Positions 187-16,771 of a DNA stretch of 25,971 nucleotides are shown here, piece by piece. The translations under genes were made by a program, and so were the position numbers. The stretch spans positions 1 to 25,971 of the forward strand of contig JAUVIY010000003.1 of assembly GCA_030592625.1 (NCBI GenBank), given 5' to 3'. The stretch comes from Spirochaeta sp. (GTDB lineage Bacteria > Spirochaetota > Spirochaetia > DSM-2461). The first letter of the stretch is position 1; every line of letters begins with the position of its first letter. The notes under the pieces were generated by a model, which worked only from the letters and a program-made list of their open reading frames with translations, ran no database searches and was not told the DNA's origin.

Positions 187-1131
187 ATGAACCCATCTGA
201 TGTAGTCGAACCGGCGGTGCGGGAAAAAATTGCCGCTATCGCGGGGAGTATTAGAAAGCGGGTCATGAAATATACGATTTCCAATAATGGGGGATACTTG
301 AGTCAGGCATGTTCCTCGGCTGAGATACTTGCATCCCTCTATGTAAAAATCATGAACCTGGGGAAAAGTGAGGCGCCTGCGGTTCCTCCACCCTTTCCGG
401 GTGTACCCGGTAAAAATAACCGGGATTACTTTACCGGAGGGGGGTATAACGGGCCGAAAACTCCGGATCTGGATCGGTTCTACTTAAGCCCCGCGCATTA
501 CGCTCTTGTTCTTTACACAGTCCTTATCGAAACAGGCAGGATGAATCCAAATGGGTTGGATCAGTTCAACCAGGATGGAACTTCTGTGGAAATGATCGGC
601 GCGGAACACTCTCCCGGCTTTGAAATGATGGGAGGATCCCTTGCTCAGACATTGAGTCAGAGTGCCGGTATTGCACTGGCAAGGAAAATCCGGAATGAAA
701 CGGGAAGAGTTTGGGTTTTTCTTTCCGATGGGGAATTCCAGGAAGGGCAGACCTGGGAAGCGATTCAAACCATGTCATTCTACGGGATCGACAATATCGG
801 TGTATATATCGACATTAACGGTCAACAATGCGATGGGGAAGTGTGCGATGTAATGTCCCTGGAACCACTTTCCGCCAGAATTCAGTCTTTCGGCGGCCGG
901 GTGATTACTGTGGACGGGCATGATATCGATGCCCTAATACAGCCGGCAAAGTTGAAACCAAATGGATGCCCGCTTTTTATTCTTTGCTATACCGATCCCT
1001 GCAAAGGCATCCCGCTTCTTACTAAGCGTAGACCGAAACTGCATTATGTTCGATTCAGTTCTCCCGAAGAGAGGGAGGAGTATCGCAGGTATTATGAAAC
1101 CAATATGCAGAAACCGGGTGAGGGGAAGTAA
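187..1131 (+). CDS. Transketolase, N-terminal (TPP-binding) subunit
   Basis: This 314-aa protein is the N-terminal half of a split transketolase. It binds the diphosphate of thiamine diphosphate. Visible landmarks are GGYLSQACSSAEIL (about 35-48), a GSLAQTLSQSAGIALA helix (149-164) and the Mg-TPP motif SDGEFQEGQ (180-188) followed by DINGQQCDG (209-217). The SPAHYALVLY segment replaces the usual SPGH. The start has a GGAG box 8 bases upstream. The partner subunit begins 3 bases after the stop. Split transketolases of this type serve specialised sugar pathways (for example AptA/AptB acting on apulose 4-phosphate), so this pair is more likely pathway-specific than the housekeeping enzyme. Here it leads an operon with an RLP, mtnK, mtnA and an importer. 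The family call is secure; the substrate is unknown. Confidence 0.93.
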   Translation: MNPSDVVEPAVREKIAAIAGSIRKRVMKYTISNNGGYLSQACSSAEILASLYVKIMNLGKSEAPAVPPPFPGVPGKNNRDYFTGGGYNGPKTPDLDRFYLSPAHYALVLYTVLIETGRMNPNGLDQFNQDGTSVEMIGAEHSPGFEMMGGSLAQTLSQSAGIALARKIRNETGRVWVFLSDGEFQEGQTWEAIQTMSFYGIDNIGVYIDINGQQCDGEVCDVMSLEPLSARIQSFGGRVITVDGHDIDALIQPAKLKPNGCPLFILCYTDPCKGIPLLTKRRPKLHYVRFSSPEEREEYRRYYETNMQKPGEGK

Positions 1132-1134
1132 GAC

Positions 1135-2142
1135 ATGGAAATAGTAACAAAGGTTCATACGAACAATTTAGTTCACTGGGCAAAGGATAAACCGGAGGTA
1201 GTCGTTCTGTCCGCCGATTTGACAAGTTCCACGGAAATCAACCTGTTCCAGGAAACATATCCGGAGCGTTTTTTCTCCATGGGTGTGGCGGAGCAGAACA
1301 TGATCAGTTTTGCAGGCGGGCTTGCCCGGGAAGGATACATTCCGTTTATTCATACATTTGCGGTGTTTATTTACCGGCAAGCCTTAAATCAGATTATCAG
1401 TTCCATCGCTTATTCCAATCTTCCGGTAAAATTTTTCGGATTTCTTCCAGGGATAACCACACCTGGTGGGGCAACTCATCAAGCTATCGATGATGTTGCC
1501 GTTTTACGCTCTGTACCTAATATGACAATCTTTGAAACAGGAGACGCAACAGAAGTTGAAAGTATCCTTGACGAAGTACTCAAAGTGGACGGACCTGTTT
1601 ATATCAGGATGCTACGGGGGGAAATACCCCGGCTTTTTAAGAAAGATGAACCATTCTTGCAGGGACGGGCAAGAGTCTTAAGCAGGGGAGAAGATATCAC
1701 CCTTCTTACCGCTGGAATATGCACGGAAGAGGCTATGCGGGCAACTTCTGTTCTTAAGCGCAACGGCATTTCCATCGAACACCTCCATATCTCCACTCAC
1801 AAGCCTTTTATTGATTCCGCCGTAGTAAAAGCTATAGCCAAACCGAACTATGGAGTCATCACGATGGAAAACCATACCATTATCGGCGGGCTTGGTACGG
1901 AAGTTGCCGAACTCATGGCTGAAAATGGAACAGGTAAAAAATTATTCCGTATTGGGCTGAAGGATACTTTTGCCCACGGCGGAAGCAGACCGTATCTGAT
2001 GAAAGAATACGGTCTCGATGCAATGTGCCTTATCAGCCAAGTGGAACAGATAGTTAACCGGTCGTTCGGGATTTCGGAGAAGGATCTGGAACATGTTCGT
2101 ATCGAGGCTGTCCACAGCCAGGCAAAAGAGGAGGCGCTCTGA
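1135..2142 (+). CDS. Transketolase, C-terminal (pyrimidine-binding) subunit
   Basis: This 335-aa protein completes the split transketolase with the PYR and C-terminal domains. GVAEQNM (50-56) carries the catalytic glutamate (about E53) that activates the thiamine cofactor. GATHQAIDD (112-120) holds the conserved His and Asp residues near the active site. The C-terminal domain (about 190-310) has the usual HTIIGGLG motif. It should form a heterotetramer with the upstream subunit and move a two-carbon unit between a ketose phosphate and an aldose phosphate. The stop overlaps the RLP start by one base (TGATG), indicating translational coupling and a shared pathway. A DXS-like role on 1-deoxy- or 1-methylthio-ketose phosphates is a hypothesis; the sequence alone does not give substrate specificity. 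Confidence 0.93.
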   Translation: MEIVTKVHTNNLVHWAKDKPEVVVLSADLTSSTEINLFQETYPERFFSMGVAEQNMISFAGGLAREGYIPFIHTFAVFIYRQALNQIISSIAYSNLPVKFFGFLPGITTPGGATHQAIDDVAVLRSVPNMTIFETGDATEVESILDEVLKVDGPVYIRMLRGEIPRLFKKDEPFLQGRARVLSRGEDITLLTAGICTEEAMRATSVLKRNGISIEHLHISTHKPFIDSAVVKAIAKPNYGVITMENHTIIGGLGTEVAELMAENGTGKKLFRIGLKDTFAHGGSRPYLMKEYGLDAMCLISQVEQIVNRSFGISEKDLEHVRIEAVHSQAKEEAL

Positions 2143-3287
2143 TGAATACAGGTTCTCTGCAGGATAAACTGAAAGGCATCAGGTTTTCCGTTACTTATAG
2201 AATTGCAGGAGATGAATCTTTTGCGACAGCTCAGGCTGAAGAACTCTGTTATGAGCAAACAGTTGAGTTTCCCAGGGACCTCGTGCCGAAGGGGGACATT
2301 GAAGATCACATCGTTGGTTGGATAGAGAATGTATCCGAATTCGAGTCGGGGTCATATCGGGTAGATATCAGTTTTGCTATTGAAACGGCAGGGAACGACC
2401 TGGTGCAGTTAATGAACGTGATTTTCGGTAATATCAGTATAAAACCCGGAATCAGAGTAGAAAATTTTTCCTTGCCGAAGGAAATGCTCGAAAAATTCCG
2501 TGGCCCAAGGTTTGGGAAAGTTGATTTTCGAAAACGGCTGAATGTGTTTGACCGGCCATTTATCTGCACTGCCCTTAAGCCCATGGGTTTATCGCCAGGC
2601 CAGCTGGCTGAACAGGCGTATGCGTTCGCAAAGGGAGGACTCGATCTTATCAAGGATGATCATGGCCTGACGAACCAGGTGTTTTCACCTTTTGAAGAAC
2701 GGGTAGCCAGGTGTCAGGAAGCGGTGGACAGAGGCAACAGTGAATCCGGTAATTCATGCGTCTACCTGCCCAATATAACCGGCCCGGCAGATCAGATAGC
2801 AGGCAGGGCGGAAAAGGCAAAAGCCATCGGAGCACAAGGGCTTCTTGTATGTCCCGGTCTTGTTGGATTGGATACAATGCGGATGATCGCCGATGACGAC
2901 TCCATTGGTCTGCCGATTATGGCCCACCCATCCTTTACCGGAAGTTATGTTACCTGCAAAGAGAATGGATTAAGCCATTATACAATATATGGACAATTAA
3001 TGCGCTTAGCCGGGGCAGATATGACTGTCTTCCCGAATTATGGAGGGAGATTTTCCTTCAGCAAGGACGAATGTCTTGAAATCACCAGGGGGTGCTCAGT
3101 GGATATGGGACCGATTTCCCCGATTATCCCTGCACCCGGGGGCGGTATAACGACTGACCGCGCAAAGGAATTGGTGGAAATATACGGAAAGGATTTTGTC
3201 CTCCTGATAGGTGGTGGAATGCATCGCAGGGGAAAAGATCTCGTTGAAAACAGCAGGTATTTTCTTGATATGATCGCATCGCTATAG
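2142..3287 (+). CDS. RuBisCO-like protein (form IV)
   Basis: This 381-aa protein has the RuBisCO large-subunit fold but not CO2-fixing chemistry. The N-terminal domain carries the RLP-type EQTVEFP segment (38-44). The barrel has TALKPMG (K146, equivalent to K175 of RuBisCO), IKDDHG (K171-D172-D173-H174, the carbamylated lysine and metal ligands, with His in place of the usual Glu), AHPSF (H262), GGRFSF (301-306), PAPGGG (330-335) and GGGMH (357-361). The loop-6 lysine needed for carboxylation has no evident equivalent. Known RLPs act as enolase in the methionine salvage pathway, as an isomerase turning 5-methylthioribulose 1-phosphate into 1-methylthioxylulose 5-phosphate (Rhodospirillum), or in isoapionate breakdown. 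With mtnK and mtnA in the same operon and no mtnB/C/D, the isomerase-type reaction is favoured. A preceding GAGGAGG box overlaps the upstream gene. Confidence 0.93.
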   Translation: MNTGSLQDKLKGIRFSVTYRIAGDESFATAQAEELCYEQTVEFPRDLVPKGDIEDHIVGWIENVSEFESGSYRVDISFAIETAGNDLVQLMNVIFGNISIKPGIRVENFSLPKEMLEKFRGPRFGKVDFRKRLNVFDRPFICTALKPMGLSPGQLAEQAYAFAKGGLDLIKDDHGLTNQVFSPFEERVARCQEAVDRGNSESGNSCVYLPNITGPADQIAGRAEKAKAIGAQGLLVCPGLVGLDTMRMIADDDSIGLPIMAHPSFTGSYVTCKENGLSHYTIYGQLMRLAGADMTVFPNYGGRFSFSKDECLEITRGCSVDMGPISPIIPAPGGGITTDRAKELVEIYGKDFVLLIGGGMHRRGKDLVENSRYFLDMIASL

Positions 3288-3297
3288 AGGGTTTATT

Positions 3298-4281
3298 ATG
3301 TCCAGGTACCCGGAAGATTTGGTTATTGCAGTGGCTCACTTCTATTACATCGAAGGGTTTACCCAGGAAGAAGTAGCTTACCGACTCAATACTTCCAGGG
3401 TTATGGTAACCAGAATGCTGAAAAGGGCACGGGAATTAGGTTTAGTACAGATAAACATAAAAAAACCGCTGCCTGCCCATTATAGACTATCACTGTCACT
3501 GGAATCAAAGTTCGGACTTAGGCTTGCCCGGGTGGTTAAAACGGGTGCGTCGGAGGATGAAACCCTTGAGGCAACAGGAAGGGAGGGCGCCGAACTTCTT
3601 GAGTCTCTTATACAACCTCATTGCAGAATCGGAGTCGCATGGAGCAAAACTGTGTGCTCGATCCTTCCTTTTGTTAAAAAACCACACAAAAAGGAATGCA
3701 TTGTCAATGAACTTGCGGGTACGTATCTGTCTCCGGAGATACCCTACAGCGTCAGCTGGCAGTTGGCGGAAAAACTAAAAGCCCCGATAGATAGTATACC
3801 TGTTCCAGTTCTGGTACAGAGTGAGGATGCAAAGGAAGTTATGCTGAAGGAGGAAATGATCCGGAATGCTTTGGATAAGGCGAAAACGGTTAATTTTGCA
3901 TTTGTTGGATTAGGAGAAATTTCTGAAAAATCAAGTTTGTCTCGAAGCGGATATATTACTGAAGAATTTATAAGGGAGATTGAAAACAAAGGCGCAGTCG
4001 GTGAAATCCTCATGAGGTACTACAACGCTGAAGGTGAATACATTCATACTTCGTTCGAGTCAAGAACAATATCCCTGGAATGGAATTCAATACGAGATCT
4101 TCCCCTGATAATCGGAATGGCATATGGCGAAAATAAGATACCCGCCATAACCGGAGCCATCAGAGGGGGTTTAATCCATGGTCTTATAACGGACAGAAAA
4201 ACCGCCGAGGCCTTACTTTCCGATGATAACGTCCCCGGAAAAGGTCACGGCAGAAACCCGCTTGTAGAGGCGGGAAATTAA
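3298..4281 (+). CDS. SorC/DeoR-type sugar-responsive transcriptional regulator
   Basis: The 327-aa protein starts with a helix-turn-helix (about 20-50: FTQEEVAYRLNTSRVMVTRM) and continues with the SorC sugar-phosphate-binding domain, recognised from IGVAWSKTV (about 106-114), FAFVGLGEI (about 201-209) and the C-terminal GLIHGLITD region. Members of this family bind a phosphorylated sugar pathway intermediate and switch the operon they sit in. It lies 10 bases after the RLP and 24 bases before the binding-protein gene, which has its own strong ribosome binding site. It probably controls the promoter at 129-157 through the inverted repeat at 90-114 (inference). The likely effector is a ketose 1- or 5-phosphate of this pathway. 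Confidence 0.88.
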   Translation: MSRYPEDLVIAVAHFYYIEGFTQEEVAYRLNTSRVMVTRMLKRARELGLVQINIKKPLPAHYRLSLSLESKFGLRLARVVKTGASEDETLEATGREGAELLESLIQPHCRIGVAWSKTVCSILPFVKKPHKKECIVNELAGTYLSPEIPYSVSWQLAEKLKAPIDSIPVPVLVQSEDAKEVMLKEEMIRNALDKAKTVNFAFVGLGEISEKSSLSRSGYITEEFIREIENKGAVGEILMRYYNAEGEYIHTSFESRTISLEWNSIRDLPLIIGMAYGENKIPAITGAIRGGLIHGLITDRKTAEALLSDDNVPGKGHGRNPLVEAGN

Positions 4282-4305
4282 CAACCTACAAATCAGGAGG
4301 TTTGT

Positions 4306-5400
4306 ATGAAAAAAAATCTGTTGTTTCTCGTGATGATTTCACTCATCACAGTCATGGCTTTTGCCGGAGGGAAGCAGGAACCGGCTACGGTACCCGATAC
4401 GCTTGAAGGGGTACCGGAGACGATTTCTAATAATCCCGACGGTGTAAAGATCGCGGTAATCAGAAACCTCGGTTCCGACGACCACACGAATCAGTTTCTC
4501 GCCGGAGCAAAAGAGGAAGGGGAAGCACTGGGGTTCAAGGTAGACACGTTCATTTCCAACGGTGAAGACGCGAAGTTCCAGGACTATGTCAACCTGGCCC
4601 TCAATAAGGATTATGACGGTATTGTTCTTTCTCATGGAAGGGATCCCTATGCGACTGACCTTGTAAAAGAAATTGTTGAAAAGGGTATCGCTGTTTCCTG
4701 CTTCGATACGGCCCTTGGGGAATCGATACCCGGCGTTACAGTTACTTCGCAGAAAGATGAGTCTCTCGCCGATATGTCCCTTGGGAACCTTGTTGATGAT
4801 TTCGGTGGTAAAGCTAATATCCTGAAACTCTGGGTGGCGGGATTCCCTCCAATGGAAAGACGGCAGGTTATCTATAAAAAAGTTCTGACCGATAATCCGA
4901 ATGTAAATGAGCTCGAGCTAATAGGGGCTGTATCCGCGGATGTTCCCGGGGATACCGCAAACCAGGTCGGTGCCGCTCTTGCTAAATATCCAAAGGGTGA
5001 AATCGACGCAATCTGGGGGTCCTGGGACGCCTTTGCACAGGGTGCGTATAAAGCGCTGGTCGAAAACAATCGCACCGAGATTAAACTGTACAGCATCGAT
5101 GTTTCGAACCAGGATCTTCAACTCATGCAGGAAGCGGGAAGTTCCTGGGTATCTACTGCAGCTGTTGACCCGAAACTGATCGGCCGGCTCAACATGCGTC
5201 TCGTAGCCAGGAAAATTGCGGGAGAATCCACACCGGAGGCATTTGAATTCGATGCCGCGCTTATTAAACAGGCGGATTTGAAAAAAAGCAGCAGTACGGT
5301 AAATATGTCAAACCTGGCAGATATAATCCCGGGATGGGGTGAATCCGACGAATTTAATGAACCATGGATGGACGTACTTCGGGACCATTACGGGAACTGA
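4306..5400 (+). CDS. Sugar ABC transporter periplasmic binding protein (RbsB/COG1879 type)
   Basis: This 364-aa exported binding protein begins with a signal peptide (residues 1-20, hydrophobic LLFLVMISLITVMAFA) followed by a charged, disordered linker. There is no lipobox cysteine. Two periplasmic-binding lobes follow, the first opening with GVKIAVIRNLGSDDHT and the second holding the IWGSWDAFAQG hinge region. The ATG has an AGGAGG box 6 bases upstream. It delivers ligand to the ATPase and permease encoded next. Context with mtnK and mtnA points to a 5-modified ribose such as methylthioribose or 5-deoxyribose as ligand; the sequence itself only says monosaccharide-like. Confidence 0.9.
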   Translation: MKKNLLFLVMISLITVMAFAGGKQEPATVPDTLEGVPETISNNPDGVKIAVIRNLGSDDHTNQFLAGAKEEGEALGFKVDTFISNGEDAKFQDYVNLALNKDYDGIVLSHGRDPYATDLVKEIVEKGIAVSCFDTALGESIPGVTVTSQKDESLADMSLGNLVDDFGGKANILKLWVAGFPPMERRQVIYKKVLTDNPNVNELELIGAVSADVPGDTANQVGAALAKYPKGEIDAIWGSWDAFAQGAYKALVENNRTEIKLYSIDVSNQDLQLMQEAGSSWVSTAAVDPKLIGRLNMRLVARKIAGESTPEAFEFDAALIKQADLKKSSSTVNMSNLADIIPGWGESDEFNEPWMDVLRDHYGN

Positions 5401-5436
5401 TACCAGGGATTTAAGAAGTGGATTTACCGCGCCAGG

Positions 5437-6951
5437 ATGGGAACAATGAAATCCGTTAAACTGGAAATGAGGAATATTTCTATCGAGTTTCCCGGTGTTA
5501 AGGCATTACAGGATGTCACCTTTGCAACGAACGCCGGGATTTCTCACGCACTTGTAGGTGCAAATGGCGCAGGTAAATCCACATTGATGAAGGTGCTGTC
5601 CGGCGCCTATAACCATTATACAGGCAGCATCTTCATTGATGGCAGAGAAGTTGAAATCCGTTATCCCCGGGATGCCAAAGATCTGGGAATCGAAATTGTA
5701 TACCAGGAAGTGGATACAGCCCTTATTTCGAATTTGACTGTAGCTGAGAACATAATGCTTGATGCTATGGTAAACGATATGGGGAGACGACAGTTTGTCA
5801 GATGGAAACAGATTCACAGTGAAGCCCGGCGGATTCTCGATCTTCTGAATGTCCGGATCGATACAAGAAAGCTGGTAAGCCAGTTAACGATGGCCCAGAA
5901 ACAGATGATCCTCATTGCGAGGGCTATCTACAAAGAGCCCCGGTTTCTTATCCTCGATGAACCCACCGCCTCCTTAAGTTATTCCGAAACAGAGGAGCTT
6001 TTTCGTGTCGTCCGGGACCTCATGAAAAGAGGCATTGGCGTCATATTTATTTCCCACAGGCTTTCGGAACTGAAGGAGATCTGCAATGAAATTACTGTGC
6101 TCCGGGACGGCGAATATGTGGGGCACGAAGCAATGGACGAAATCAGCATAAATGAGATTATCGAAATGATGCTGGGGCGACGTTTTATCGAAAGCTATCC
6201 AAAATATAAAGTGCCTATCGGTGAGATAGTTTTTGAAGTTGAACAATTAAGCGATGGCAGAAATGTAAGGGACGTTAATCTGTATGTGAGGTCCGGTGAA
6301 ATTGTAGGGATCGCGGGACTGGTTGGTGCGGGAAAATCCGAACTGTGCAAGACGATCTTTGGGGCTTCTTCAGCGGAATACAGGAAGGCCTCTTTCCACG
6401 GCAAAACTTTTAACATCAACAACCCCTTTACCTCTGTTGCGCAGGGTCTCGCACTGGTCCCGGAGGAACGCAGAAAAGAGGGCGTCCTCGTTCAGGAAAG
6501 TGTTGCTGTAAATCTTACCGCTGCGGCTCTTTCCAATTTCTGTGGTGTGATGAGATTCATCAATTTCAGTAAAGAGCGGAGCACTGTTCAGGATATGATA
6601 CGCAGCCTGGGGATTAAAACCCCCACGGAATACCAGAAAGTACGGTATCTCTCAGGAGGGAATCAGCAGAAAGTCGCTGTCGGGAAATGGCTTATTACGA
6701 AATCGGATATGTACATTTTAGACGAACCAACAAAGGGGATAGATGTGGGGGCTAAAACAGACATCTTCAACCTTATAGGGAACCTGGCAAAGAAGGGCAA
6801 AGCAATAATTTATGCTTCCTGCGAGCTTGCTGAAGTTCTGGGTATCACCGACCGTGTGTACGTGATGTATAACGGAAGAATTGTTAAAGAACTGGAGACG
6901 AAGAATACAAACGAGGAGGAGCTCCTGTTCTACTCGACGGGGAGTCAATAA
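5437..6951 (+). CDS. Sugar ABC transporter ATPase, two-domain (RbsA type)
   Basis: This 504-aa cytoplasmic protein has two fused ABC domains. Domain 1: Walker A GANGAGKST (41-49), a weak signature SQLTMAQKQM, and Walker B FLILDEPTA. Domain 2: Walker A GLVGAGKSE, signature LSGGNQQKV and Walker B YILDEPTKGID. Domain 1's degenerate signature is normal for RbsA-type proteins. The start is ambiguous: the ATG at 5437 or the ATG at 5446, the latter better spaced from an AGGATGG box. The 36-base gap after the binding protein is the largest inside the transporter block; the permease starts 2 bases after this stop. It energises import of the operon's sugar. Confidence 0.92.
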   Translation: MGTMKSVKLEMRNISIEFPGVKALQDVTFATNAGISHALVGANGAGKSTLMKVLSGAYNHYTGSIFIDGREVEIRYPRDAKDLGIEIVYQEVDTALISNLTVAENIMLDAMVNDMGRRQFVRWKQIHSEARRILDLLNVRIDTRKLVSQLTMAQKQMILIARAIYKEPRFLILDEPTASLSYSETEELFRVVRDLMKRGIGVIFISHRLSELKEICNEITVLRDGEYVGHEAMDEISINEIIEMMLGRRFIESYPKYKVPIGEIVFEVEQLSDGRNVRDVNLYVRSGEIVGIAGLVGAGKSELCKTIFGASSAEYRKASFHGKTFNINNPFTSVAQGLALVPEERRKEGVLVQESVAVNLTAAALSNFCGVMRFINFSKERSTVQDMIRSLGIKTPTEYQKVRYLSGGNQQKVAVGKWLITKSDMYILDEPTKGIDVGAKTDIFNLIGNLAKKGKAIIYASCELAEVLGITDRVYVMYNGRIVKELETKNTNEEELLFYSTGSQ

Positions 6952-6953
6952 AA

Positions 6954-7958
6954 ATGAATACGCAAGTGAATAATAGTATCAGTCAGAAGAAGTTCGCTTT
7001 TTTTGAACTTTTCTACAAGTGGGGAACCCTGATAACGATAGTACTTCTTGTCTTGTTTTTCGGAATAGTTCGGAGGTCCTTTCTATCGCCCGGGAACATT
7101 ATCAATATTTTCAGATCCATATCCATCGTTACGGTTATCGCTATCGGTGTTACTGTTTCTCTTGCCGTGGGAGGGCTTGATCTCTCTGTTGGTTCGGTCG
7201 TGTCTCTTTCTGATGCGGTTGTCCTTTCATTATTCATCTGGTATGGAAGCAGTACGGTCCTTGCTTTGCCTGCAGCCATACTGGCGTGCCTTATCATCGG
7301 CGCTTTTAATTCCTTCCTGATTATTAAAGTGCGGATTCCAGATATCATCGCAACACTGTCAAGTTTATTTATATTCCAGGGAGTGGCGATGACCTACACA
7401 TTCGGAGGTTCCATAACGGAAAACATGACTATGCGGGATGGCTCGACAGCTACCGGTCATCTCACAGCGGCTTTCTCATCAATAGGCCAGGTACCTGCCA
7501 TTATCATCATCATGGTTGTTGTTGTTGGGATAGTTCACGTTTTTCTGACCTATACAAAGCACGGCAGGTATATCTATGTTATCGGAGGGAACATGGAAGC
7601 AGCCCGCCTGTCCGGTATTCCTGTCAACCGATACCGTACGGCAGCGTACCTCATTTCTTCTTTGTTTGCGGCCCTGGGGGGTATCATGCTTGCCTCAAGA
7701 ATAGGCTCTTCCCAGGTAAACGCCGGTTCAGCTTACCTCATGGATGCTGTTGCCGCTACCTATATCGGATTCTCTGTCGGGGGCGCGGGAAAACCCAACG
7801 CTTTGGGGACATTTATCGGCGCCATTCTCATAGGAATACTGCAGAACGGTCTTGTCATGGTATCCGTTCCTTATTTTGCTATGGACATTGTAAAAGGCGC
7901 TGTACTTGCACTGGCCCTGGCAATGACCTATTTCAGAAAACAGGACGGAGGCATGTAA
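6954..7958 (+). CDS. Sugar ABC transporter permease (RbsC type)
   Basis: This 334-aa inner-membrane protein has eight to ten hydrophobic segments. It shows the family landmarks GGLDLSVGSVVSLSD (about 72-86) and, near the C-terminus, TYIGFSVGGAGKPNALGTFI (about 268-287) followed by an IGILQNGL helix. It forms a homodimeric channel with the two-domain ATPase. The stop overlaps the mtnK start by one base (TAATG), so import and the first kinase step are translationally coupled. That coupling is the best evidence that the imported ligand is the kinase substrate. Confidence 0.92.
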   Translation: MNTQVNNSISQKKFAFFELFYKWGTLITIVLLVLFFGIVRRSFLSPGNIINIFRSISIVTVIAIGVTVSLAVGGLDLSVGSVVSLSDAVVLSLFIWYGSSTVLALPAAILACLIIGAFNSFLIIKVRIPDIIATLSSLFIFQGVAMTYTFGGSITENMTMRDGSTATGHLTAAFSSIGQVPAIIIIMVVVVGIVHVFLTYTKHGRYIYVIGGNMEAARLSGIPVNRYRTAAYLISSLFAALGGIMLASRIGSSQVNAGSAYLMDAVAATYIGFSVGGAGKPNALGTFIGAILIGILQNGLVMVSVPYFAMDIVKGAVLALALAMTYFRKQDGGM

Positions 7959-9178
7959 TGACAGATTTCAGCAGTTATTTTCTGATGAACGCTGAAGACG
8001 CCGCGGAGTATTCAAAAATCCAGCTTAATTACTTCAGCCCTGATGCTGATCTCGAGCAAACGGAGATTGGGGACGGGAACCTCAATTATATCTTCCGAAT
8101 CAGGGATAGAAAAACCGGAAAATCTGTTGTTATTAAGCAGGCAGGTCATACTGCCCGCATATCTGACGAATTCAAAGTTTCTCCAGACCGTAACCGGATA
8201 GAATATGAAAAGCTGAAAATGGAAAATGAACTCGTTCCCGGACTGGTTCCGCTGGTGTATCATTATAATGAGGTGATGAACTGTCTTGCGATGGAAGACC
8301 TTTCAGACCATGTCATCATGCGTAATGAACTGTGCGAGCATAAAATATTTCCACGGTTTGCGGACCATATATCCACGTACATGGCGAATACTCTCCTGCT
8401 GATATCAGATGCTGTAATTGACCATAAAAAAAAGAAGGAGATTGTAAACAGATTTATTAACCCTGATTTATGCGAAATAACCGAGGATCTGGTTTATACC
8501 GAACCATTTAACGATATAAACAAGAGAAATAATGTCTTTCCGCCTAATTCTGATTTTATTTCCCGGGAAATCTATTCCGATAAAAAACTGCTCTTGGAAA
8601 CAGCGAAAATGAAATTCGACTTCATGTGCAATGCCCAAAGCCTTATACATGGCGACCTGCATACAGGATCGATTTTCGTTACCCGGGACTCTACAAAAAT
8701 AATCGATCCGGAATTCGCATTCTTTGGTCCCGCCGGCTATGATATCGGGAATATCATCGCCAACCTGATATTCGCCTGGGCCAATGCAGAGACTACAATG
8801 GAGGATGAAACCGCCCGGAAAGAATACACCCGCTGGCTGGAAGAAACAATTATAGATGTTCTCAATATGTTTGTGAGTAAATGGAAAGAATTGTGGAAAG
8901 AGCGGGTATCGGAAGTATCAGCGACTTACGAAGGTTTCGATACATGGTACCTGGGGAGAATCCTCCGTGATACAGCCGGTGTAACAGGACTGGAACTCTG
9001 CAGACGTATTATCGGGATTGCTCAGGTAAAAGATATTACCTCAATTGCATCTACGGAGAAGAGGCTCAGGGCGGAGCGTCTGTGTTTAAGAACGGCAAAA
9101 AGGTGTATCTTCGAACGTGATACGATAACAACTCCTGAGCAGTATCTGAACATAGTAAGGTGGGCCGCGGAGAAATAG
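7958..9178 (+). CDS. mtnK: S-methyl-5-thioribose kinase
   Basis: The 406-aa protein belongs to the aminoglycoside-phosphotransferase-like fold and matches MtnK closely: GDGNLNYIFRI (38-48, nucleotide loop), VVIKQ (57-61), MEDLSDH (112-118), the catalytic loop HGDLHTGSIF (231-240) and metal-binding DPEFAFFGPAGYDIG (250-264). HGDLHTGS and DPEFAF are hallmarks separating MtnK from homoserine or choline kinases. It phosphorylates methylthioribose at C1; MtnK-type kinases are also known to use 5-deoxyribose in the DHAP shunt. Length is normal for the family (about 400 aa). It is coupled to the upstream permease and the downstream mtnA, so imported sugar is phosphorylated at once. Confidence 0.95.
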   Translation: MTDFSSYFLMNAEDAAEYSKIQLNYFSPDADLEQTEIGDGNLNYIFRIRDRKTGKSVVIKQAGHTARISDEFKVSPDRNRIEYEKLKMENELVPGLVPLVYHYNEVMNCLAMEDLSDHVIMRNELCEHKIFPRFADHISTYMANTLLLISDAVIDHKKKKEIVNRFINPDLCEITEDLVYTEPFNDINKRNNVFPPNSDFISREIYSDKKLLLETAKMKFDFMCNAQSLIHGDLHTGSIFVTRDSTKIIDPEFAFFGPAGYDIGNIIANLIFAWANAETTMEDETARKEYTRWLEETIIDVLNMFVSKWKELWKERVSEVSATYEGFDTWYLGRILRDTAGVTGLELCRRIIGIAQVKDITSIASTEKRLRAERLCLRTAKRCIFERDTITTPEQYLNIVRWAAEK

Positions 9179-9180
9179 GA

Positions 9181-10245
9181 ATGAATGGAATCAATACTAT
9201 CCGTGCTGTTTTTTTGAATAGTCAGCGAGATGCTCTGATAATTCTCGATCAGACACTTCTGCCGAATGAAGTAAAATATCTGTCCTTATCAACCCCGGAA
9301 GAAATATTTCAGGCGATCTGTGAACTCAAAGTCCGAGGAGCCCCTGCTATCGGAATTGCCGCAGCGTACGGCCTCTGTGTTGTTCTCCGCAATTTTCCGG
9401 GGGATAGTTTCGAGGAGTTTTACAATGAATTTATTCGGATAAAATCATTATTTGCCTCGTCCCGCCCTACGGCTGTCAATCTTTTTTGGGCATTGGAACG
9501 CCTCGATGCCAGGGTTCTCCGGGACCGATGGAAGCCCTTAGCGAATATAAAGGAAGCTTTGTATGAGGAGGCCGCGGCAATCGCCTCGGAGGATGAAGAG
9601 GTCTGCAGACAAATAGGGGAACACGCCCTGACCCTGTTACGGGACGGATGGGGAATCCTTACGCACTGTAATGCCGGAACCATCGCGACAACTCGCTATG
9701 GGACAGCGCTGGCGCCGATTCACATCGGTACACAGAAGGGATACAGGTTTACGGTGTACGCGGACGAAAGCCGTCCTCTTCTGCAGGGAGCACGGCTCAC
9801 CACCTGGGAACTTACGGCCGCTGGTATAGACGTTGTCCTGATCTGCGACAATATGGCCTCCATAGTCATGAAACAGGGAAAGGTTCAGGCAGCTATTGTA
9901 GGGTGTGACAGGGTAGCGGCGAACGGTGACGCGGCGAATAAAATCGGAACCTCAGGTGTCGCGATCCTGGCCAGGCATTACGAAATTCCTTTTTACGTTG
10001 CCGCACCCATCTCAACAATCGATATGAACTGCGCAACCGGTGACGATATTATAATAGAGGAACGTCCATCTGAAGAAATAACAGAGAAATGGTATAAAAA
10101 ACGGATGGCTCCGGAGGGGATCCGGGTTTACAATCCGGCTTTCGATGTTACAGATCATGAATTGATAAGTGCGATTGTAACGGAAAAAGGAATTATCTAT
10201 CCCCCGTATAATGAGCAGCTTCCTTTGGTTGCGGGGCGGAACTGA
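9181..10245 (+). CDS. mtnA: S-methyl-5-thioribose-1-phosphate isomerase
   Basis: The 354-aa eIF2B-fold isomerase converts methylthioribose 1-phosphate to methylthioribulose 1-phosphate. It has RGAPAIG (52-58), the catalytic cysteine in THCNAGTIATT (C163), ADESRPLLQGARLT (194-207), the catalytic aspartate in VGCDRVAANGD (D243) and NKIGT (253-257). All residues that define active MtnA against eIF2B subunits are present. The ATG at 9181 is preferred to the upstream GTG at 9160: it has a GGAG box about 8 bases ahead, gives the usual family length and avoids overlapping mtnK by 19 bases. It is the last gene of the operon; no mtnB, mtnC or mtnD follows. Confidence 0.95.
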   Translation: MNGINTIRAVFLNSQRDALIILDQTLLPNEVKYLSLSTPEEIFQAICELKVRGAPAIGIAAAYGLCVVLRNFPGDSFEEFYNEFIRIKSLFASSRPTAVNLFWALERLDARVLRDRWKPLANIKEALYEEAAAIASEDEEVCRQIGEHALTLLRDGWGILTHCNAGTIATTRYGTALAPIHIGTQKGYRFTVYADESRPLLQGARLTTWELTAAGIDVVLICDNMASIVMKQGKVQAAIVGCDRVAANGDAANKIGTSGVAILARHYEIPFYVAAPISTIDMNCATGDDIIIEERPSEEITEKWYKKRMAPEGIRVYNPAFDVTDHELISAIVTEKGIIYPPYNEQLPLVAGRN

Positions 10246-11710: not shown

Positions 11711-13891
11711 ATGGTCAGGTTCGACTGGCTTGGATCGCCCCAGGTCCTGAAAGATGGACTATGCATTCACATCGAAAGACGAAAGGCCCTGGGAATACTC
11801 GTATATCTCTCCGTCAGGAGCTTGCCGGCCGCCCGGGAGGAGCTCAAGGCATTGTTCTGGCCTGAGGCCGATACTTCGGGTGCGAGCCGGTCGCTGAGAA
11901 CCGCTTTGTCCGAAATCCGGAAGAAACTCCCCGGCATCCTCATGAACACCGGGAACGATACCCTAAGCTTGGATCAGGATTTACTGGAATGTGATATCGG
12001 AATCCTTTATCGATATGTCGATCACGCCAAATCCCTGGAGGAACCCGAAGCGTCCGCCCGGGAATACTCCCGGGCCGCTTCACTATGGAGGGGTTCCTTC
12101 CTTCAAGGATTTAATATCCGGGCTTCGTATCGCTTCGACGACTGGATGCAGCTCCTGTCCGAATCCCTTCGGAATGATCTCATCGATATTCTTGAACCCC
12201 TGACAGAGCTATACATGTCTTCCGGCCGTTTCGGAGCAGCTCGGTCTACTCTCTATACCTGGCTGGACATAGACCCTCTGGATGAAACGGCTCAAAGACT
12301 GGTAATGAAAACCTGCCTCGCTTCTGGAGACAGGGCGGAAGCATTACGGCAATTCAATCGATTTCGCAAAAAACTGGACGAGGAATTGGGTCTTTCCCCA
12401 TCTCCCGAATCAATCAAACTTGCGGAAGAAATCAGAAAGCCCGGGATCGAGACGATTCCTATGCCCCCAATATATTTCAAGAAGACCTTCCGACTTGCCG
12501 GTCGATCCGCCGGTCCCCAGTCTGGGGAAAGTGATGGCCGGCGATCCGATCTTATCTTGAGCCAAGCATTAAAAGAGAGTTTCTCCCGTCGCCGGGAAGT
12601 CGTGTATATCGACCCTGTGGATATCGACGGGAATCGGGATAATGATATAGACCTGACCCGGTTGGGACATCGTCTGGGTACCCGATATGTTCTGGACTGC
12701 TCGTTTCGTAACTCCTCACAGAATCGGCAATCTCTTAATATGAACCTCACGGATGCCATTGATGGAGGGGTTCTCTGGGACAAGAATTCACCCATCGCGA
12801 CCCCGGATCTTCCCGCATTGGCAGGTGAGATAACAGAAGAGATTATCCGACGATTGGCGGGAACAACAGCCGATCCCCTGCCATCGGTGAGAGAATCGCC
12901 CGACAGTCGGGCCTGGCACCTCCAGGGTGTGCATTATCGGCGATATGGAAAGCTTGAGGACCTTATTAAATCTATTGATTGTTTCAATAAAGCCAGCTTA
13001 GCGGATCCGGCCAATTTGCGTGCAACATCCGAGAAAGCTTTGAGCTATGCCTGTGCCGGCGCTTTCGGTACCTGGGTGATGCCCCCGGATGAAGCTTACG
13101 GTCTGGCCCGTGATTTATCCCGAGAAGTACTTGAAGAATCCCCCGGTGATTCCATCGCCCTGCTCACACAAGCGACTGTGGAATCGGAATATGACCGGAA
13201 TCCTCTCCTGGGGCTCCGGGATACCCGTCTGGCCCTGGTGGCTGATCACGACAATCCTGAAATACTGATACAACTCGCCCAAACTCTCCAGGGACTTTGG
13301 CGCAGGGAGGAGGCTCTTGAAGCCGCACGATCGGCCTATCTCCGAGATCCCGCCGACTATTGTGCTATGCTAACCTTGCATAGCGCACTCCGGGCAACGA
13401 GACGGTTCCGGGAATGCCTGGAGATTGATAACCGGTTCGAAACACTCTACCCGGGTCACGTGCACGGTCCGGTTATCAGGAGCATGACCTATTCATTCAT
13501 GGGGGATAATGAAAAGGCCTGTGTCATCATGGCTCCCCTCCTACCCGAGGATCCTGATGTACACTTGACGCCTTTCATCGGTAACCTGGGCTACTTCCTC
13601 GGCCGCGCCGGGAAGATTCCCGAGGCCGATTCATTCCTGAGTCGAATGGAGAAACAGTACAGGATTGGAGCACTCTCCTCTTACCCGATAGCCTTCACTC
13701 TACTGGGTCTCCATCGAATACCGGAATGCCTGGATTGGTTGGAGATTGCCGAAAAAGGGAATGATATATCTCTAAGTATAATCAACTTCAATCCCGAGTG
13801 GGAGGAGCTGCTCCCTCATCCACGTTTCCGCGTCCTATGCAGGAAAATGGGTGTGGTGGATCTACCGGAAGTATATGAAGGAGCGGATTAA
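11711..13891 (+). CDS. SARP/BTAD-type transcriptional regulator with TolB-like and TPR regions
   Basis: The 726-aa protein begins with a winged helix of the OmpR-like kind used by SARP activators (about 1-85, including REELKALFWPEADTSGASRS) and continues with the bacterial transcriptional activation domain (about 100-245, ending in AEALRQFNRFRKKLDEELGL). Residues about 275-385 resemble the TolB-like domain of adenylate-cyclase or CadC-type regulators (GHRLGTRYVLDCSFR, then a GGVLWDKN motif). The rest (about 395-715) is helical TPR-like repeat. There is no membrane segment. A TATAAT (11687-11692) lies 18 bases before the start, and only a weak GGAAG box is present. Such one-component regulators usually sense an internal signal through the TPR part. 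The target is probably the divergent exported protein. Confidence 0.85.
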   Translation: MVRFDWLGSPQVLKDGLCIHIERRKALGILVYLSVRSLPAAREELKALFWPEADTSGASRSLRTALSEIRKKLPGILMNTGNDTLSLDQDLLECDIGILYRYVDHAKSLEEPEASAREYSRAASLWRGSFLQGFNIRASYRFDDWMQLLSESLRNDLIDILEPLTELYMSSGRFGAARSTLYTWLDIDPLDETAQRLVMKTCLASGDRAEALRQFNRFRKKLDEELGLSPSPESIKLAEEIRKPGIETIPMPPIYFKKTFRLAGRSAGPQSGESDGRRSDLILSQALKESFSRRREVVYIDPVDIDGNRDNDIDLTRLGHRLGTRYVLDCSFRNSSQNRQSLNMNLTDAIDGGVLWDKNSPIATPDLPALAGEITEEIIRRLAGTTADPLPSVRESPDSRAWHLQGVHYRRYGKLEDLIKSIDCFNKASLADPANLRATSEKALSYACAGAFGTWVMPPDEAYGLARDLSREVLEESPGDSIALLTQATVESEYDRNPLLGLRDTRLALVADHDNPEILIQLAQTLQGLWRREEALEAARSAYLRDPADYCAMLTLHSALRATRRFRECLEIDNRFETLYPGHVHGPVIRSMTYSFMGDNEKACVIMAPLLPEDPDVHLTPFIGNLGYFLGRAGKIPEADSFLSRMEKQYRIGALSSYPIAFTLLGLHRIPECLDWLEIAEKGNDISLSIINFNPEWEELLPHPRFRVLCRKMGVVDLPEVYEGAD

Positions 13892-14176: not shown

Positions 14177-14794
14177 CTACAAATCCAGACCGTAGAAAAT
14201 CGAAAAGAGAATTGTGAGGATGACAAGGACGTAAAACCACTTTCCAGAGAATTTCGGAGTTTGAACAGGTGCTAAATTGAACACCGCCAGAATCATCAAT
14301 ACAGCATAGAGAATACCTGAAAAGACCGAACGGTCGAAGAACCGTTCACTTAAAAAGAAGACTGCAAGGACAACAATATTGTTATCCAATGCCAGCCCTT
14401 GGTACGTGTGGCTATCGACAAGTCCGAACACATTGAAGTAGCTCAGGCGAATGGCGGCAACAGCGACAAGAAGGAATGCTCCAGGCAGGAACCAGACGCC
14501 GAAACCACCGTATGCAAGAAGAAACACACCTGGAACAACTCCGAAACTGACTATATCAATCAGCGAATCAAGATTCGCGCCCAGGGCTTTTTGGTCGTCA
14601 GAGCGGTGTTTCATTCTCCGGGCCACGATACCGTCGGCCCAATCGAAGACTACGGCCCATAGGGTTGCTACGATAGCCAGAGAGAATGCGCCGAGGATCG
14701 CAGCATATATAGCGGTAACTGCGCATAAAAGGCCCACAAGGGAAACGATATTCGGGGGATCCAGCACAAGGGCTATCATGTTCTTTTTGTTCAT
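14177..14794 (-). CDS. CDP-alcohol phosphatidyltransferase family membrane enzyme
   Basis: The 205-aa integral membrane protein has about five to six hydrophobic segments. It carries the family signature DGIVAR...G...D...D (about 54-80: DWADGIVARR, then GANLDSLIDIVSFG). The AR-to-G spacer is longer (12 residues) than in the minimal motif, closer to phosphatidylserine-synthase-like members. The family moves a phospho-head-group from a CDP-alcohol to an alcohol acceptor in the membrane. It overlaps the upstream PLP enzyme by 4 bases (ATGA) and follows a nucleotidyltransferase, so its CDP-activated substrate is probably made by that neighbour. Whether the product is a phosphatidylethanolamine-like lipid, another aminoalcohol lipid or a phosphonolipid is not shown. 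A GGAAAGG box supports the start. Confidence 0.9.
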   Translation of the reverse strand: MNKKNMIALVLDPPNIVSLVGLLCAVTAIYAAILGAFSLAIVATLWAVVFDWADGIVARRMKHRSDDQKALGANLDSLIDIVSFGVVPGVFLLAYGGFGVWFLPGAFLLVAVAAIRLSYFNVFGLVDSHTYQGLALDNNIVVLAVFFLSERFFDRSVFSGILYAVLMILAVFNLAPVQTPKFSGKWFYVLVILTILFSIFYGLDL

Positions 14795-15909
14795 TTCGTG
14801 CCCTTTCCCGGCTGATTCAGCACCTCGGACAGAGCACGGAACAACTCGCGATTTTCCGGTTCGGTACGACAGGCGATCCGGAGATAACGATCGGCATCGG
14901 GTTGGGTTTTTCCCACACAGTCTTTGACAAGAATGTTGTGATCTATGAATAGTCTCCGGGCTATATCGGGGCCATTGGCCGCATCTTCCGGTAATCGACA
15001 GAAAATAAAATTGGCGTCCGGCTTGTGAAGGGTCATCCCGGGGATTGTCCCCAACATCTTGTACATACTATCCCGGTCAGCACGGACTCTCGAACAGCTC
15101 TCCTGGAATTCCTGGTAATACTCAGGCAGTATGCGTAAGAACTCTTCTGCGAAACCGTTCAGATTCCAGATGTGGACACCTTTACGTACGGCTTCGGCAA
15201 AATCATCATTCGCTGTAACCATATACCCGATCCTGAGCCCGCAAATCCCGTAAGCTTTGCTCATGCTTTTAAAGATGGCCACATTAACATGGTCATCGAG
15301 TGCACCTTCCAGAGACCATTCATCGAGTTCTTCGGTGAAATCGAGAAAGGATTCATCGATAATCAGGATACACCCTCGAGATTCCAGTTTTCGTGCGAGA
15401 CGTTGCAGGTCGGCCCTGGGCACGGCTATGGAAGTCGGATTGTTCGGAGTTACCACAACCGCGACATCGGCCCCCACCCGGACTGCTTCTGCTGCGAACT
15501 TGTCTACATCCAGGTGAAAGGAAGGAAAATCCAGAGGGAACTCGACAACGCTGTCAACGGGTGCGGCATTTACATATTCGTTGAACGACGGTACCGGGAT
15601 TATAAGCTTCCGGGCCACTTGCCCTGAAACAATCTTAATCAGTTCGGCTGCACCATTTCCCACTACGATACGCTTTGCGTTCTGGTTGATTATGGTTCCA
15701 ACAAGCTCAGCCAGGGCATGCTGAGCCACAGGATAGTTCAAAACAAGATCGTGGATACTATCTTTCAGTCGGGAGAACAGAGCTTCAGGCGGGAAATATA
15801 GATTGTAGAGGTAGGCATGATCGATAAAGCCGTGCCGATAATAGCCACCATGCTGTGAAGATACAAACTTGTATTTAACCGCTCTGCTGGAATTTGATTC
15901 ATGTTCCAT
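14791..15909 (-). CDS. PLP-dependent class I/II aminotransferase-fold enzyme (CobD/HisC-like)
   Basis: The 372-aa protein is a fold-type I PLP enzyme. Motifs are VVTPNNPTS (about 165-173), the PLP-ring aspartate in LIIDESFLDF (about 203-212) and the Schiff-base lysine in FKSMSKAYGICGLRIGYM (about 236-253). An unusual N-terminal GGYYRHGFIDHAYLYNLYFP replaces the usual HisC start. The nearest known families are histidinol-phosphate aminotransferase and threonine-phosphate decarboxylase (CobD). There are no histidine or cobalamin genes here. Between a cytidylyltransferase-like gene and a CDP-alcohol phosphotransferase it could decarboxylate phosphoserine or phosphothreonine, or transaminate a head-group precursor (inference). 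It overlaps the upstream gene by 11 bases. Confidence 0.87.
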   Translation of the reverse strand: MEHESNSSRAVKYKFVSSQHGGYYRHGFIDHAYLYNLYFPPEALFSRLKDSIHDLVLNYPVAQHALAELVGTIINQNAKRIVVGNGAAELIKIVSGQVARKLIIPVPSFNEYVNAAPVDSVVEFPLDFPSFHLDVDKFAAEAVRVGADVAVVVTPNNPTSIAVPRADLQRLARKLESRGCILIIDESFLDFTEELDEWSLEGALDDHVNVAIFKSMSKAYGICGLRIGYMVTANDDFAEAVRKGVHIWNLNGFAEEFLRILPEYYQEFQESCSRVRADRDSMYKMLGTIPGMTLHKPDANFIFCRLPEDAANGPDIARRLFIDHNILVKDCVGKTQPDADRYLRIACRTEPENRELFRALSEVLNQPGKGTK

Positions 15910-16771
15910 ATCTGAGGTTTCTTATCGTGTCTCCGGTGAACCCCTCATTTAGGAATCTGTGCTGAGGCAACGGAATTTCAGGCTTGTCGGCTACATCAGG
16001 TTGTATCGACGGGAAGAGTTTCTCCGCTTCCCTGAGATCCGCAATCGTGTCGATTTCGTACCATGGCTTATCTTTGAAGGAAACCTTCTGGAAAGACAGG
16101 GATCCTTCGTCAACCAGATCGGAAAAAACCGTTTCGTAATAATCATTCACCTTCCCGGCAGAAATCACGGCGTCCAATCGCTGTGAGACAGCATCCCAGG
16201 AAGCCCTGGAAAGACTATAGATATTCACAGTCTTATAGGTTGCTTCGTTAGGGAATTTCGCATTTCCGTTGGTGAAAGCGTTAACGCTTCCGGTATCCGT
16301 CAACGTGACGCCGGTACCATTCATCCAGGATCCGAAATTATCCAGGGCGATTCTATCCGGGTATAGCATTCCTTCCAGAAGGGATTCATCGAAAACGAGA
16401 TCGCTCTCGAAAAGTACGAAGGGCTCACTGAGGTATTTCCGCGCCATCCAAAGCGAATAAATATTATTTGTGGTTTTATACTTTGGGCTGTGTACATATT
16501 CGATTTTCAGTTTACCTCGGGAATGACCGAGTTCCTCCCGAATCCGATTTTCCAGGTGTCCCGTAACAACCACCAATCGTTTAAATCCGTGCTTTCGAAG
16601 GTTCGAGATCAGGCGCTCCAGAATGGAAGTTCCGTTTACCATAGTCAGGCATTTCGGTTCGTCTTGCGTCAGGGGAAATAACCGGCTCCCTGTTCCGGCA
16701 GCCAATAAAAGTGCCGTAGTCACTTTCTTTTCGTCATGTGTGTGTCGTTTCAAATTGGATTCCTTGTTCAC
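15899..16771 (-). CDS. Nucleotidyltransferase, LicC/PntC-like (probable phospho-head-group cytidylyltransferase)
   Basis: The 290-aa protein has the nucleotidyltransferase core LLLAAGTGSRLFPLT (about 21-35) with the substrate-activating lysine in DEPKCL, a metal-site FESDLVF, TNNIYSLW and the C-terminal WYEIDTIADLREAEKLF. The NNIYSLW and WYEIDT pattern resembles LicC (phosphocholine) and PntC (2-aminoethylphosphonate) cytidylyltransferases more than hexose-phosphate ones. No choline kinase and no phosphoenolpyruvate mutase are in the window. The start is uncertain: GTG at 16771 lacks a ribosome binding site, and a GTG at 16723 would begin right at the core. It is the first gene of the three-gene operon, and its C-terminal tail overlaps the PLP enzyme, which suggests a near-fusion arrangement. 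Confidence 0.82.
   Translation of the reverse strand: MNKESNLKRHTHDEKKVTTALLLAAGTGSRLFPLTQDEPKCLTMVNGTSILERLISNLRKHGFKRLVVVTGHLENRIREELGHSRGKLKIEYVHSPKYKTTNNIYSLWMARKYLSEPFVLFESDLVFDESLLEGMLYPDRIALDNFGSWMNGTGVTLTDTGSVNAFTNGNAKFPNEATYKTVNIYSLSRASWDAVSQRLDAVISAGKVNDYYETVFSDLVDEGSLSFQKVSFKDKPWYEIDTIADLREAEKLFPSIQPDVADKPEIPLPQHRFLNEGFTGDTIRNLRYGT

Follow-up and report, generated by a model that had tools for sequence, protein, structure and literature searches.

We analysed a stretch of 25,971 nucleotides from a Spirochaeta sp. (assembly GCA_030592625.1, contig JAUVIY010000003.1), called the window here, and describe an operon at positions 187-10245 of its forward strand in which a RuBisCO-like protein (RLP) is encoded beside a transketolase split into an N-terminal (TKN) and a C-terminal (TKC) subunit, together with a SorC regulator, a ribose-type importer, MtnK and MtnA. 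Our reading is that the importer would take up 5-methylthioribose (MTR), that MtnK would phosphorylate it and MtnA isomerise it to 5-methylthioribulose 1-phosphate (MTRu-1P), that the RLP would convert this to 1-methylthio-xylulose 5-phosphate (MTXu-5P), and that the split thiamine diphosphate (ThDP) enzyme would take MTXu-5P instead of the cupin methylsulfurylase. From the sequence data we put the probability of this route at roughly 60%. The MtnK and MtnA steps are assigned because of family membership, and the transketolase is proposed to act on the RLP product because of gene linkage, cupin exclusion and its donor site. Since the RLP step resembles that of a known MTRu-1P 1,3-isomerase, only the transketolase step would be new.

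In that step, cleavage between C2 and C3 as by transketolase would free glyceraldehyde 3-phosphate. The ThDP-bound carbanion, with methylthio as a beta leaving group, would as its most likely fate eliminate methanethiol and yield an acetyl unit (acetate or acetyl phosphate), and the methanethiol would be recaptured as methionine. This is suggested by the sulfur context and by ThDP chemistry, in which phosphoketolase and sulfoacetaldehyde acetyltransferase (Xsc) offer precedents, losing water and sulfite, respectively, from the ThDP carbanion. That methanethiol leaves and an acetyl product remains is the more tentative part of the proposal, which we rate somewhat below even odds. With similar reserve we suggest a new class of ThDP enzyme, a 'methylthio-ketolase' converting MTXu-5P to glyceraldehyde 3-phosphate, methanethiol and an acetyl unit, which with MtnA and the RLP might provide oxygen- and glutathione-independent methionine salvage in many phyla of bacteria and in one or more members of the Asgard archaea.

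The TKN-TKC-RLP arrangement is a real recurring module and not due to chance. Our sample of RLP loci consists of the best 80 of 563 confirmed stretches from a scan of genome contigs, which is biased to close relatives, and three loci from another search; two of these 83 loci (L003 and L045) are the same contig. TKN and/or TKC stand beside the RLP in 61 loci and a cupin in seven, while no locus has both and 15 have neither, some of the latter being short stretches and one of them (L078) bearing a TKC fragment at the contig edge. Where both reading frames were measurable with a crude gene caller, the median gap between TKC and RLP is -1 base, and 47 of 57 loci stay within 100 bases. Carriers of the module include Spirochaetota, Chloroflexota, Bacillota, Nitrospirota, Planctomycetota, Acidobacteriota, Calditrichota, Pseudomonadota, Deinococcota, Myxococcota and a Lokiarchaeote. 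The sequence-only reading of this DNA had proposed to look for the same neighbourhood elsewhere, and the nine-gene order does recur in one locus (L029), whose gene content is identical to that of the window operon, including regulator, importer, MtnK and MtnA after the first three genes. In four others (L046, L048, L081 and L085) MtnK and MtnA lie upstream of TKN-TKC-RLP in the same direction. Long frames resembling natural fusions of TKN and TKC were also seen, in Nitrospirota and G247 (L091 5980-7818, the L053 and L058 genomes, and L109 613-2496). Among the papers listed by our searches of the open-licence literature, which leaves out most subscription papers, we found no report of an RLP-transketolase pair; this is compatible with the earlier suggestion that the pathway may be undescribed but does not prove it. 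PMC7895386 covers transketolase with true RuBisCO and omits RLPs.

Near-perfect co-occurrence is also observed across whole genomes. In 392 genomes drawn evenly from the phylum of the window, with RLPs accepted at an E-value of 1e-60 or better and TKC clade members at 55% identity or more, the RLP was found in 15 genomes and the transketolase clade in 15 (in G231 as two fragments), of which 14 are common to both (Fisher p 1e-23, a statistic that ignores kinship). The next TKC match below the clade is only 40% identical, and in the genome with the RLP alone (G215) the match lies 473 bases from the contig start. An ordinary pentose-phosphate transketolase serving pentoses from within the operon would fit the fact that split transketolases are common, with an ordinary copy (33-42% identity) present in a number of the same genomes. 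However, this is a separate clade with a sharp identity gap (55% vs 40%) that shares 14 of its 15 genomes with the RLP, and both donor and acceptor residues are changed. We therefore rejected this explanation on active site and RLP linkage, and consider it very improbable.

The cupin and the transketolase exclude each other. We searched the genomes of 50 of the 80 loci, chosen as 29 with the transketolase nearby, seven with a cupin nearby and 14 with neither, and counted cupins as methylsulfurylase-like at 91 bits or more (range 91-272, four of the 14 counted scoring only 91-103). The transketolase clade is found in 33 of these genomes, the cupin in 14, both in none and neither in three; the 14 loci that were not picked by label divide into four, seven and three (transketolase, cupin, neither). 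MtnA is present in 48 of the 50. The window's own assembly (2.84 Mb in 438 contigs, 73% complete, which applies to every absence from it reported here) has a sole cupin of 47 bits, read as unrelated, vs 91-272 bits for the methylsulfurylase-like ones. Together with 15 other genomes of the phylum survey it gave five cupin matches of 43-51 bits and none stronger. A quick tree was made of 85 RLPs and five outgroup rows, with ten short or over-long rows dropped and L001-L003, L092, L104 and L105 omitted as copies or pieces; L097 is labelled 'none' in it though its genome, G244, has the transketolase on another contig. Transketolase and cupin states alternate on this tree with at least ten changes, at least three of those for the cupin being forced by well-supported branches. 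The label is weakly clustered, because shuffled labels give a mean of 13.3 changes for the cupin. This alternation, together with the alignment columns shared by the RLPs of both kinds, suggests that transketolase and cupin have most likely been exchanged for one another behind the same RLP.

The best solved chain for the RLP is 3qfw (257.6 bits, with 172.2 for the next chain), which we take to be RLP1 of Rhodopseudomonas palustris (RPA2169), and the stretches IKDDHGL and FPNYGGRF are common to both. Between 67 transketolase-linked and 14 cupin-linked RLPs there is no alignment column with differing dominant residues (at least 80% in each set), and KDDH is kept in all 67 and all 14. By family resemblance to the known DeepYkr MTRu-1P 1,3-isomerase, the window RLP is predicted to make MTXu-5P. 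The product of the DeepYkr RLP is MTXu-5P together with the ribulose epimer at 3:1, and the cupin RPA2170, numbered next to RLP1, then removes the methylthio group with glutathione (PMC5893883). In one relative (L081) an Rpe over its cut-off overlaps the end of the RLP gene and could convert this ribulose epimer. No NCBIfam curated model matches the window RLP over its cut-off. An MtnW enolase was ruled out, as the two MtnW models give 228.6 bits (409 needed) and 176.1 bits (513.6 needed), and so was the apionate RLP OiaX, with 81.7 of the 700 bits needed.

The active site of the transketolase was compared in E. coli TktA numbering, using 54 distinct TKN and 64 TKC sequences of the clade and 15 ordinary split transketolases; some clade sequences may be one gene cut differently, and a gap of one residue directly precedes the His100 column in the alignment. 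The clade keeps the ThDP, metal and catalytic residues Asp155 (54/54), Asn185 (53/54) and Glu411 (64/64), and also His261 (54/54), His473 (64/64), Ser385 (63/64) and Arg520 (64/64). His26 and His100, which are histidine in all 15 ordinary enzymes, are replaced by Tyr (54/54) and by Met (51/54) or Leu (3/54), respectively. Asp469 (Asp in 13 and Asn in two ordinary enzymes) is Gly in 64/64, His461 (kept in 11/15) is Leu in 63 and Val in one of 64, and Arg358 (kept in 13/15) is Ser in 31, Thr in 12, Ala in six, Gln in four, Leu in three and another residue in eight. The roles of His26, Asp469 and the single phosphate residues are assumed here. There is an extra conserved segment at about TKN residues 67-89, and the phosphate-site motif, most often S/T-S-F-L-R in the clade and T-S-F-L-R in the window, is RSFHR in transketolase and RAFDR in SqwGH (PMC11659671). 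Two further positions vary inside the clade, His66 (His in 32 and Gln in 22 of 54) and Glu160 (kept in 27 and replaced in 27 of 54), while all ordinary split transketolases have His and Glu there; these may mark subgroups with different chemistry.

His100 is a donor-binding residue that is Phe in the synthases of 1-deoxyxylulose 5-phosphate (DXP), and the changes H100F and H100L increase the activity of a transketolase with pyruvate, a donor without a C1 hydroxyl (PMC7661550). Since they do so, Met or Leu at this position fits a donor without a C1 hydroxyl, such as a 1-methylthio or 1-deoxy sugar. One alternative is a true transketolase or lyase that keeps the thiol, in which a methylthio-C2 unit would be moved to an aldose phosphate or freed as 2-methylthioacetaldehyde, and the sulfur would stay in a C2 or larger product. 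The fold is kept, as are the ThDP residue Glu411 and His473, His261, Ser385 and Arg520, and the known dihydroxyacetone phosphate (DHAP) shunt yields 2-methylthioacetaldehyde (PMC5893883). Nevertheless, the loss of the acceptor-side residues argues against ordinary second-substrate transfer. A one-step aldolase already makes the same C2 aldehyde, so that an RLP and a ThDP enzyme would bring no gain, and a SAM riboswitch and a MetX neighbour in relatives point to sulfur recovery; we regard this alternative as unlikely. Another proposal is that 5-deoxyribose serves as the acceptor and is extended to 7-deoxysedoheptulose, for which the promiscuous Synechococcus transketolase offers a precedent (PMC8102628). 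This would require neither MtnA nor RLP, the acceptor-side residues are changed, and we find it hardly credible.

The neighbours of the module in relatives, and the importer of the window, bear on which sugar is used. L075 has three SAM riboswitches, one at 7863-7964, about 95 bases before the ATG of TKN, another before MetQ and the last further on; in L030 one lies just behind the RLP, ahead of MetX and a Cys/Met pyridoxal phosphate enzyme. A nucleoside phosphorylase behind the RLP in L024 reaches 266.6 bits with the 5'-methylthioadenosine (MTA) phosphorylase model (cut-off 274.85) and 228.7 bits with the methylthioinosine phosphorylase model, which is over the cut-off of 223; L014 has a 42% identical homologue in the same place. 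Across 80 loci such neighbours are few, with MTA phosphorylase in two, MetX in two, MtnK in 10 and MtnA in 12. Riboswitch and MetX beside these relatives suggest that the sulfur is recovered. The binding protein of the window operon is related to a 5-methylthioribose binder of an MTR transporter. The sequence-only reading had named methylthioribose or 5-deoxyribose as the substrate; methylthioribose is now favoured by the importer here and by the riboswitch and MTA-phosphorylase homologues in relatives, and 5-deoxyribose has become the less favoured of the two.

With 5-deoxyribose, MtnK and MtnA would produce 5-deoxyribulose 1-phosphate, the RLP would produce DXP, and the transketolase would release glyceraldehyde 3-phosphate and a C2 unit at the level of acetaldehyde. 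Homologues of MtnK and MtnA use both sugars (PMC6079011, PMC10986504), Met or Leu at His100 would suit a 1-deoxy donor equally well as a 1-methylthio one, some relatives have aldolase or LsrF modules suited to 5-deoxy sugars, and in the 11 of 33 transketolase genomes without Dxr the DXP would need another use. Against this stand the relation of the binding protein to the MTR transporter, the sulfur-related neighbours of the module in a few relatives (SAM riboswitch, MetX, a homologue of MTA phosphorylase), and the fact that the transketolase stands in for a cupin whose substrate is MTXu-5P, so that we doubt the deoxy-sugar explanation and give it a low probability. We also rejected isoprenoid supply as the reason for having transketolase or cupin, as Dxr does not divide cleanly between the two (22/33 transketolase and 10/14 cupin genomes); since four of the 14 cupin genomes are without Dxr, isoprenoid synthesis from DXP does not account for the choice of enzyme. 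Dxs is found in 29 of the 42 transketolase entries described below, and neither Dxr nor Dxs was found in the window's own assembly.

Two other gene sets for deoxy sugars were seen in relatives. LsrF (3-hydroxy-5-phosphonooxypentane-2,4-dione thiolase) is over its curated cut-off in L045, L038, L090 and L081, with BLAST homologues in L062 and L082. Its gene lies near those for a dehydrogenase and for MtnA or MtnK, next to RLP and transketolase (L045 15753-20167 and 11375-12418, L038 3635-7798, L090 3919-8012, L081 11106-13869). Judged by the structures, its substrate is presumably the exact product of C4 oxidation of 5-deoxyribulose 1-phosphate or DXP, and the set may constitute an additional pathway from 5-deoxyribose, leading to acetyl-CoA and DHAP. 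In Alkalispirochaeta alkalica (L168 1815-6873; also L012 17470-21114) two EutN/CcmL shell genes, a class II aldolase, MtnK, a DeoR regulator and MtnA lie behind the RLP-transketolase operon, and this cluster possibly encodes a microcompartment for 5-deoxypentose breakdown.

A standard route encoded elsewhere, either MtnB/MtnD salvage or the DHAP shunt, might also finish the pathway, with the RLP-transketolase pair being unrelated to it. The incompleteness of the assembly could hide such genes, and among 42 transketolase entries (40 genomes, as G047/L045 and G380/L012 are pairs) class II aldolases occur in 33, mostly with weak scores on the MtnB model. MtnD is over its cut-off in only two of the 42, one of them barely, and MtnB in one; the two occur together in an Alicyclobacillus genome (L085). 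In the window's own assembly MtnD was not found and no MtnB is over the cut-off, on which grounds canonical methionine salvage was rejected. The MtnB model gives 43.8 bits, under the cut-off, for one class II aldolase elsewhere in that assembly, which by eye belongs to an AraD-like pentose cluster, and there is none among the nine operon genes. We consider a standard route improbable. The standard downstream partners had been noted as missing from the operon, and for MtnB and MtnD the assembly agrees, with only a weak generic cupin besides. The claim that a different route leads from MTRu-1P and ends at a transketolase gains support from the recurrent module, the co-occurrence, the cupin exclusion and the active-site changes.

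Several observations weigh against the proposed route. The lost residues His26, Asp469, His461 and Arg358 bind the half of the substrate that MTXu-5P shares with xylulose 5-phosphate, so that the enzyme must either hold the phosphate end in another way or act on a different substrate. One genome (G290) bears the transketolase pair without an RLP, and weaker cupin matches (39-60 bits) occur in eight of the 33 transketolase genomes; these were not counted and were read as unrelated cupins. In an Rfam scan of 41 loci, 35 with the transketolase and six with the cupin, SAM riboswitches were found in only two of the former and none of the latter, and directly upstream of TKN in one. Family scans found no phosphotransacetylase or acetate kinase among the nine operon genes, and the chemistry is one that we infer for the enzymes. 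In G290 (L136 220-3881) the transketolase, with Y26, M100 and G469, has a zinc alcohol dehydrogenase and a gene resembling class II aldolases/epimerases as neighbours, and as the genome has no RLP match, another source of the transketolase substrate may exist.

The features of the operon are given in Table 1. ORF calling and family scans bear out that nine co-directional genes in one run encode split transketolase, RLP, SorC regulator, importer, MtnK and MtnA. The genes had also been described as overlapping, which is true of three of the eight junctions (two by one base and MtnK/MtnA by 19), whereas gaps of 2-36 bases separate the genes at the remaining five; the 19-base overlap disappears with the ATG at 9181 as the start of MtnA. 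MtnK reaches 417.4 bits on TIGR01767 (curated cut-off 275) and MtnA 418.2 bits on TIGR00512 (curated cut-off 279). Further genes upstream of TKN may exist, because the window begins at the first base of its contig. The inverted repeat found there is possibly an operator for the SorC regulator, or the end of an upstream gene. In the stretches upstream of TKN in four relatives we found no inverted repeat or shared operator palindrome, and an Rfam scan of the window gave no element upstream of TKN, its sole match being a tRNA.

Table 1. Features of the RLP-transketolase operon and its upstream region (positions in the window)
Feature	Position	Strand	Evidence and remarks
Inverted repeat, 16-nt arms, 4-nt loop	30..65	.	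arms 94% complementary; about 120 bases 5' of TKN
TKN, N-terminal ThDP-binding subunit of split transketolase (RLP-linked clade)	187..1131	+	PF00456; best PDB 6yak; Y at TktA His26, Met136 at TktA His100
TKC, pyrimidine and C-terminal subunit of split transketolase	1135..2142	+	PF02779, PF02780; best PDB 6yaj; L at TktA His461, G at TktA Asp469
RLP, DeepYkr-like, predicted 5-methylthioribulose-1-phosphate 1,3-isomerase	2142..3287	+	PF00016 (RuBisCO_large); best PDB 3qfw
SorC/DeoR-type sugar-sensing transcriptional regulator	3298..4281	+	PF04198, 206.6 bits
Periplasmic sugar-binding protein, predicted 5-methylthioribose binder	4306..5400	+	
Ribose-type ABC importer ATPase	5437..6951	+	PF00005, two stretches
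Ribose-type ABC importer permease	6954..7958	+	PF02653
MtnK, 5-methylthioribose kinase	7958..9178	+	TIGR01767 over curated cut-off; best PDB 2olc (methylthioribose kinase)
MtnA, 5-methylthioribose-1-phosphate isomerase	9160..10245, start possibly ATG at 9181	+	TIGR00512 over curated cut-off

Elsewhere in the window, a protein resembling BTAD-domain transcriptional activators is encoded directly downstream of the operon (11711-13891). On the reverse strand, three overlapping genes (14177-16771) encode a nucleotidyltransferase, a class I/II aminotransferase and a CDP-alcohol phosphatidyltransferase, a set that would suit synthesis of an unusual phospholipid or phosphonolipid head group. Also on the reverse strand (19986-24221) is a BadF/BadG-type CoA enzyme activase of 1411 residues, with two activase stretches and DUF2229.

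Oxygen-free recovery of the methylthio group in anaerobes, without MtnD, is only partly known, as the cupin route uses a thiol such as glutathione and volatile products are lost in the DHAP shunt. If our proposal is true, a widespread pair of RLP and ThDP enzyme would fill this gap, a function would be found for many genes now named 'ribulose-bisphosphate carboxylase large chain' and 'transketolase', and the sulfur cycle would gain a new methanethiol-forming reaction.

The closest known system is the MTA-isoprenoid shunt of Rhodospirillum rubrum and Rhodopseudomonas palustris (MtnP, MtnA, DeepYkr RLP and cupin), where MtnA and an RLP like the one described here lead to MTXu-5P without a need for oxygen. 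In our operon a split ThDP enzyme takes the place of the thiol-dependent cupin, which was not found in the window's own assembly; entry would be by import and MtnK, and the product need not be DXP. The DHAP shunt and 5-deoxyribose disposal (MtnK or DrdK, MtnA or DrdI, and a class II aldolase) share the first two enzymes and often a sugar transporter, but the operon has RLP and transketolase and no class II aldolase. Phosphoketolase and Xsc resemble the proposed enzyme in the beta-elimination from a ThDP carbanion to acetyl-ThDP, but here the leaving group would be methanethiolate, and general family scans of the window proteins gave no match to either family. The split transketolase of Carboxydothermus hydrogenoformans (6yak/6yaj) and other ordinary split transketolases have the same two-subunit layout and cofactor residues, whereas the clade described here is RLP-linked, is replaced at His26, His100, His461, Asp469 and Arg358, and has the extra TKN segment at about residues 67-89. 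Finally, the 6-deoxy-6-sulfofructose transketolase SqwGH is likewise a split transketolase recruited for a sulfur sugar with an altered phosphate-site motif, but its head-group motif is RAFDR (PMC11659671) rather than S/T-S-F-L-R, and the C2 unit that it transfers is free of sulfur.

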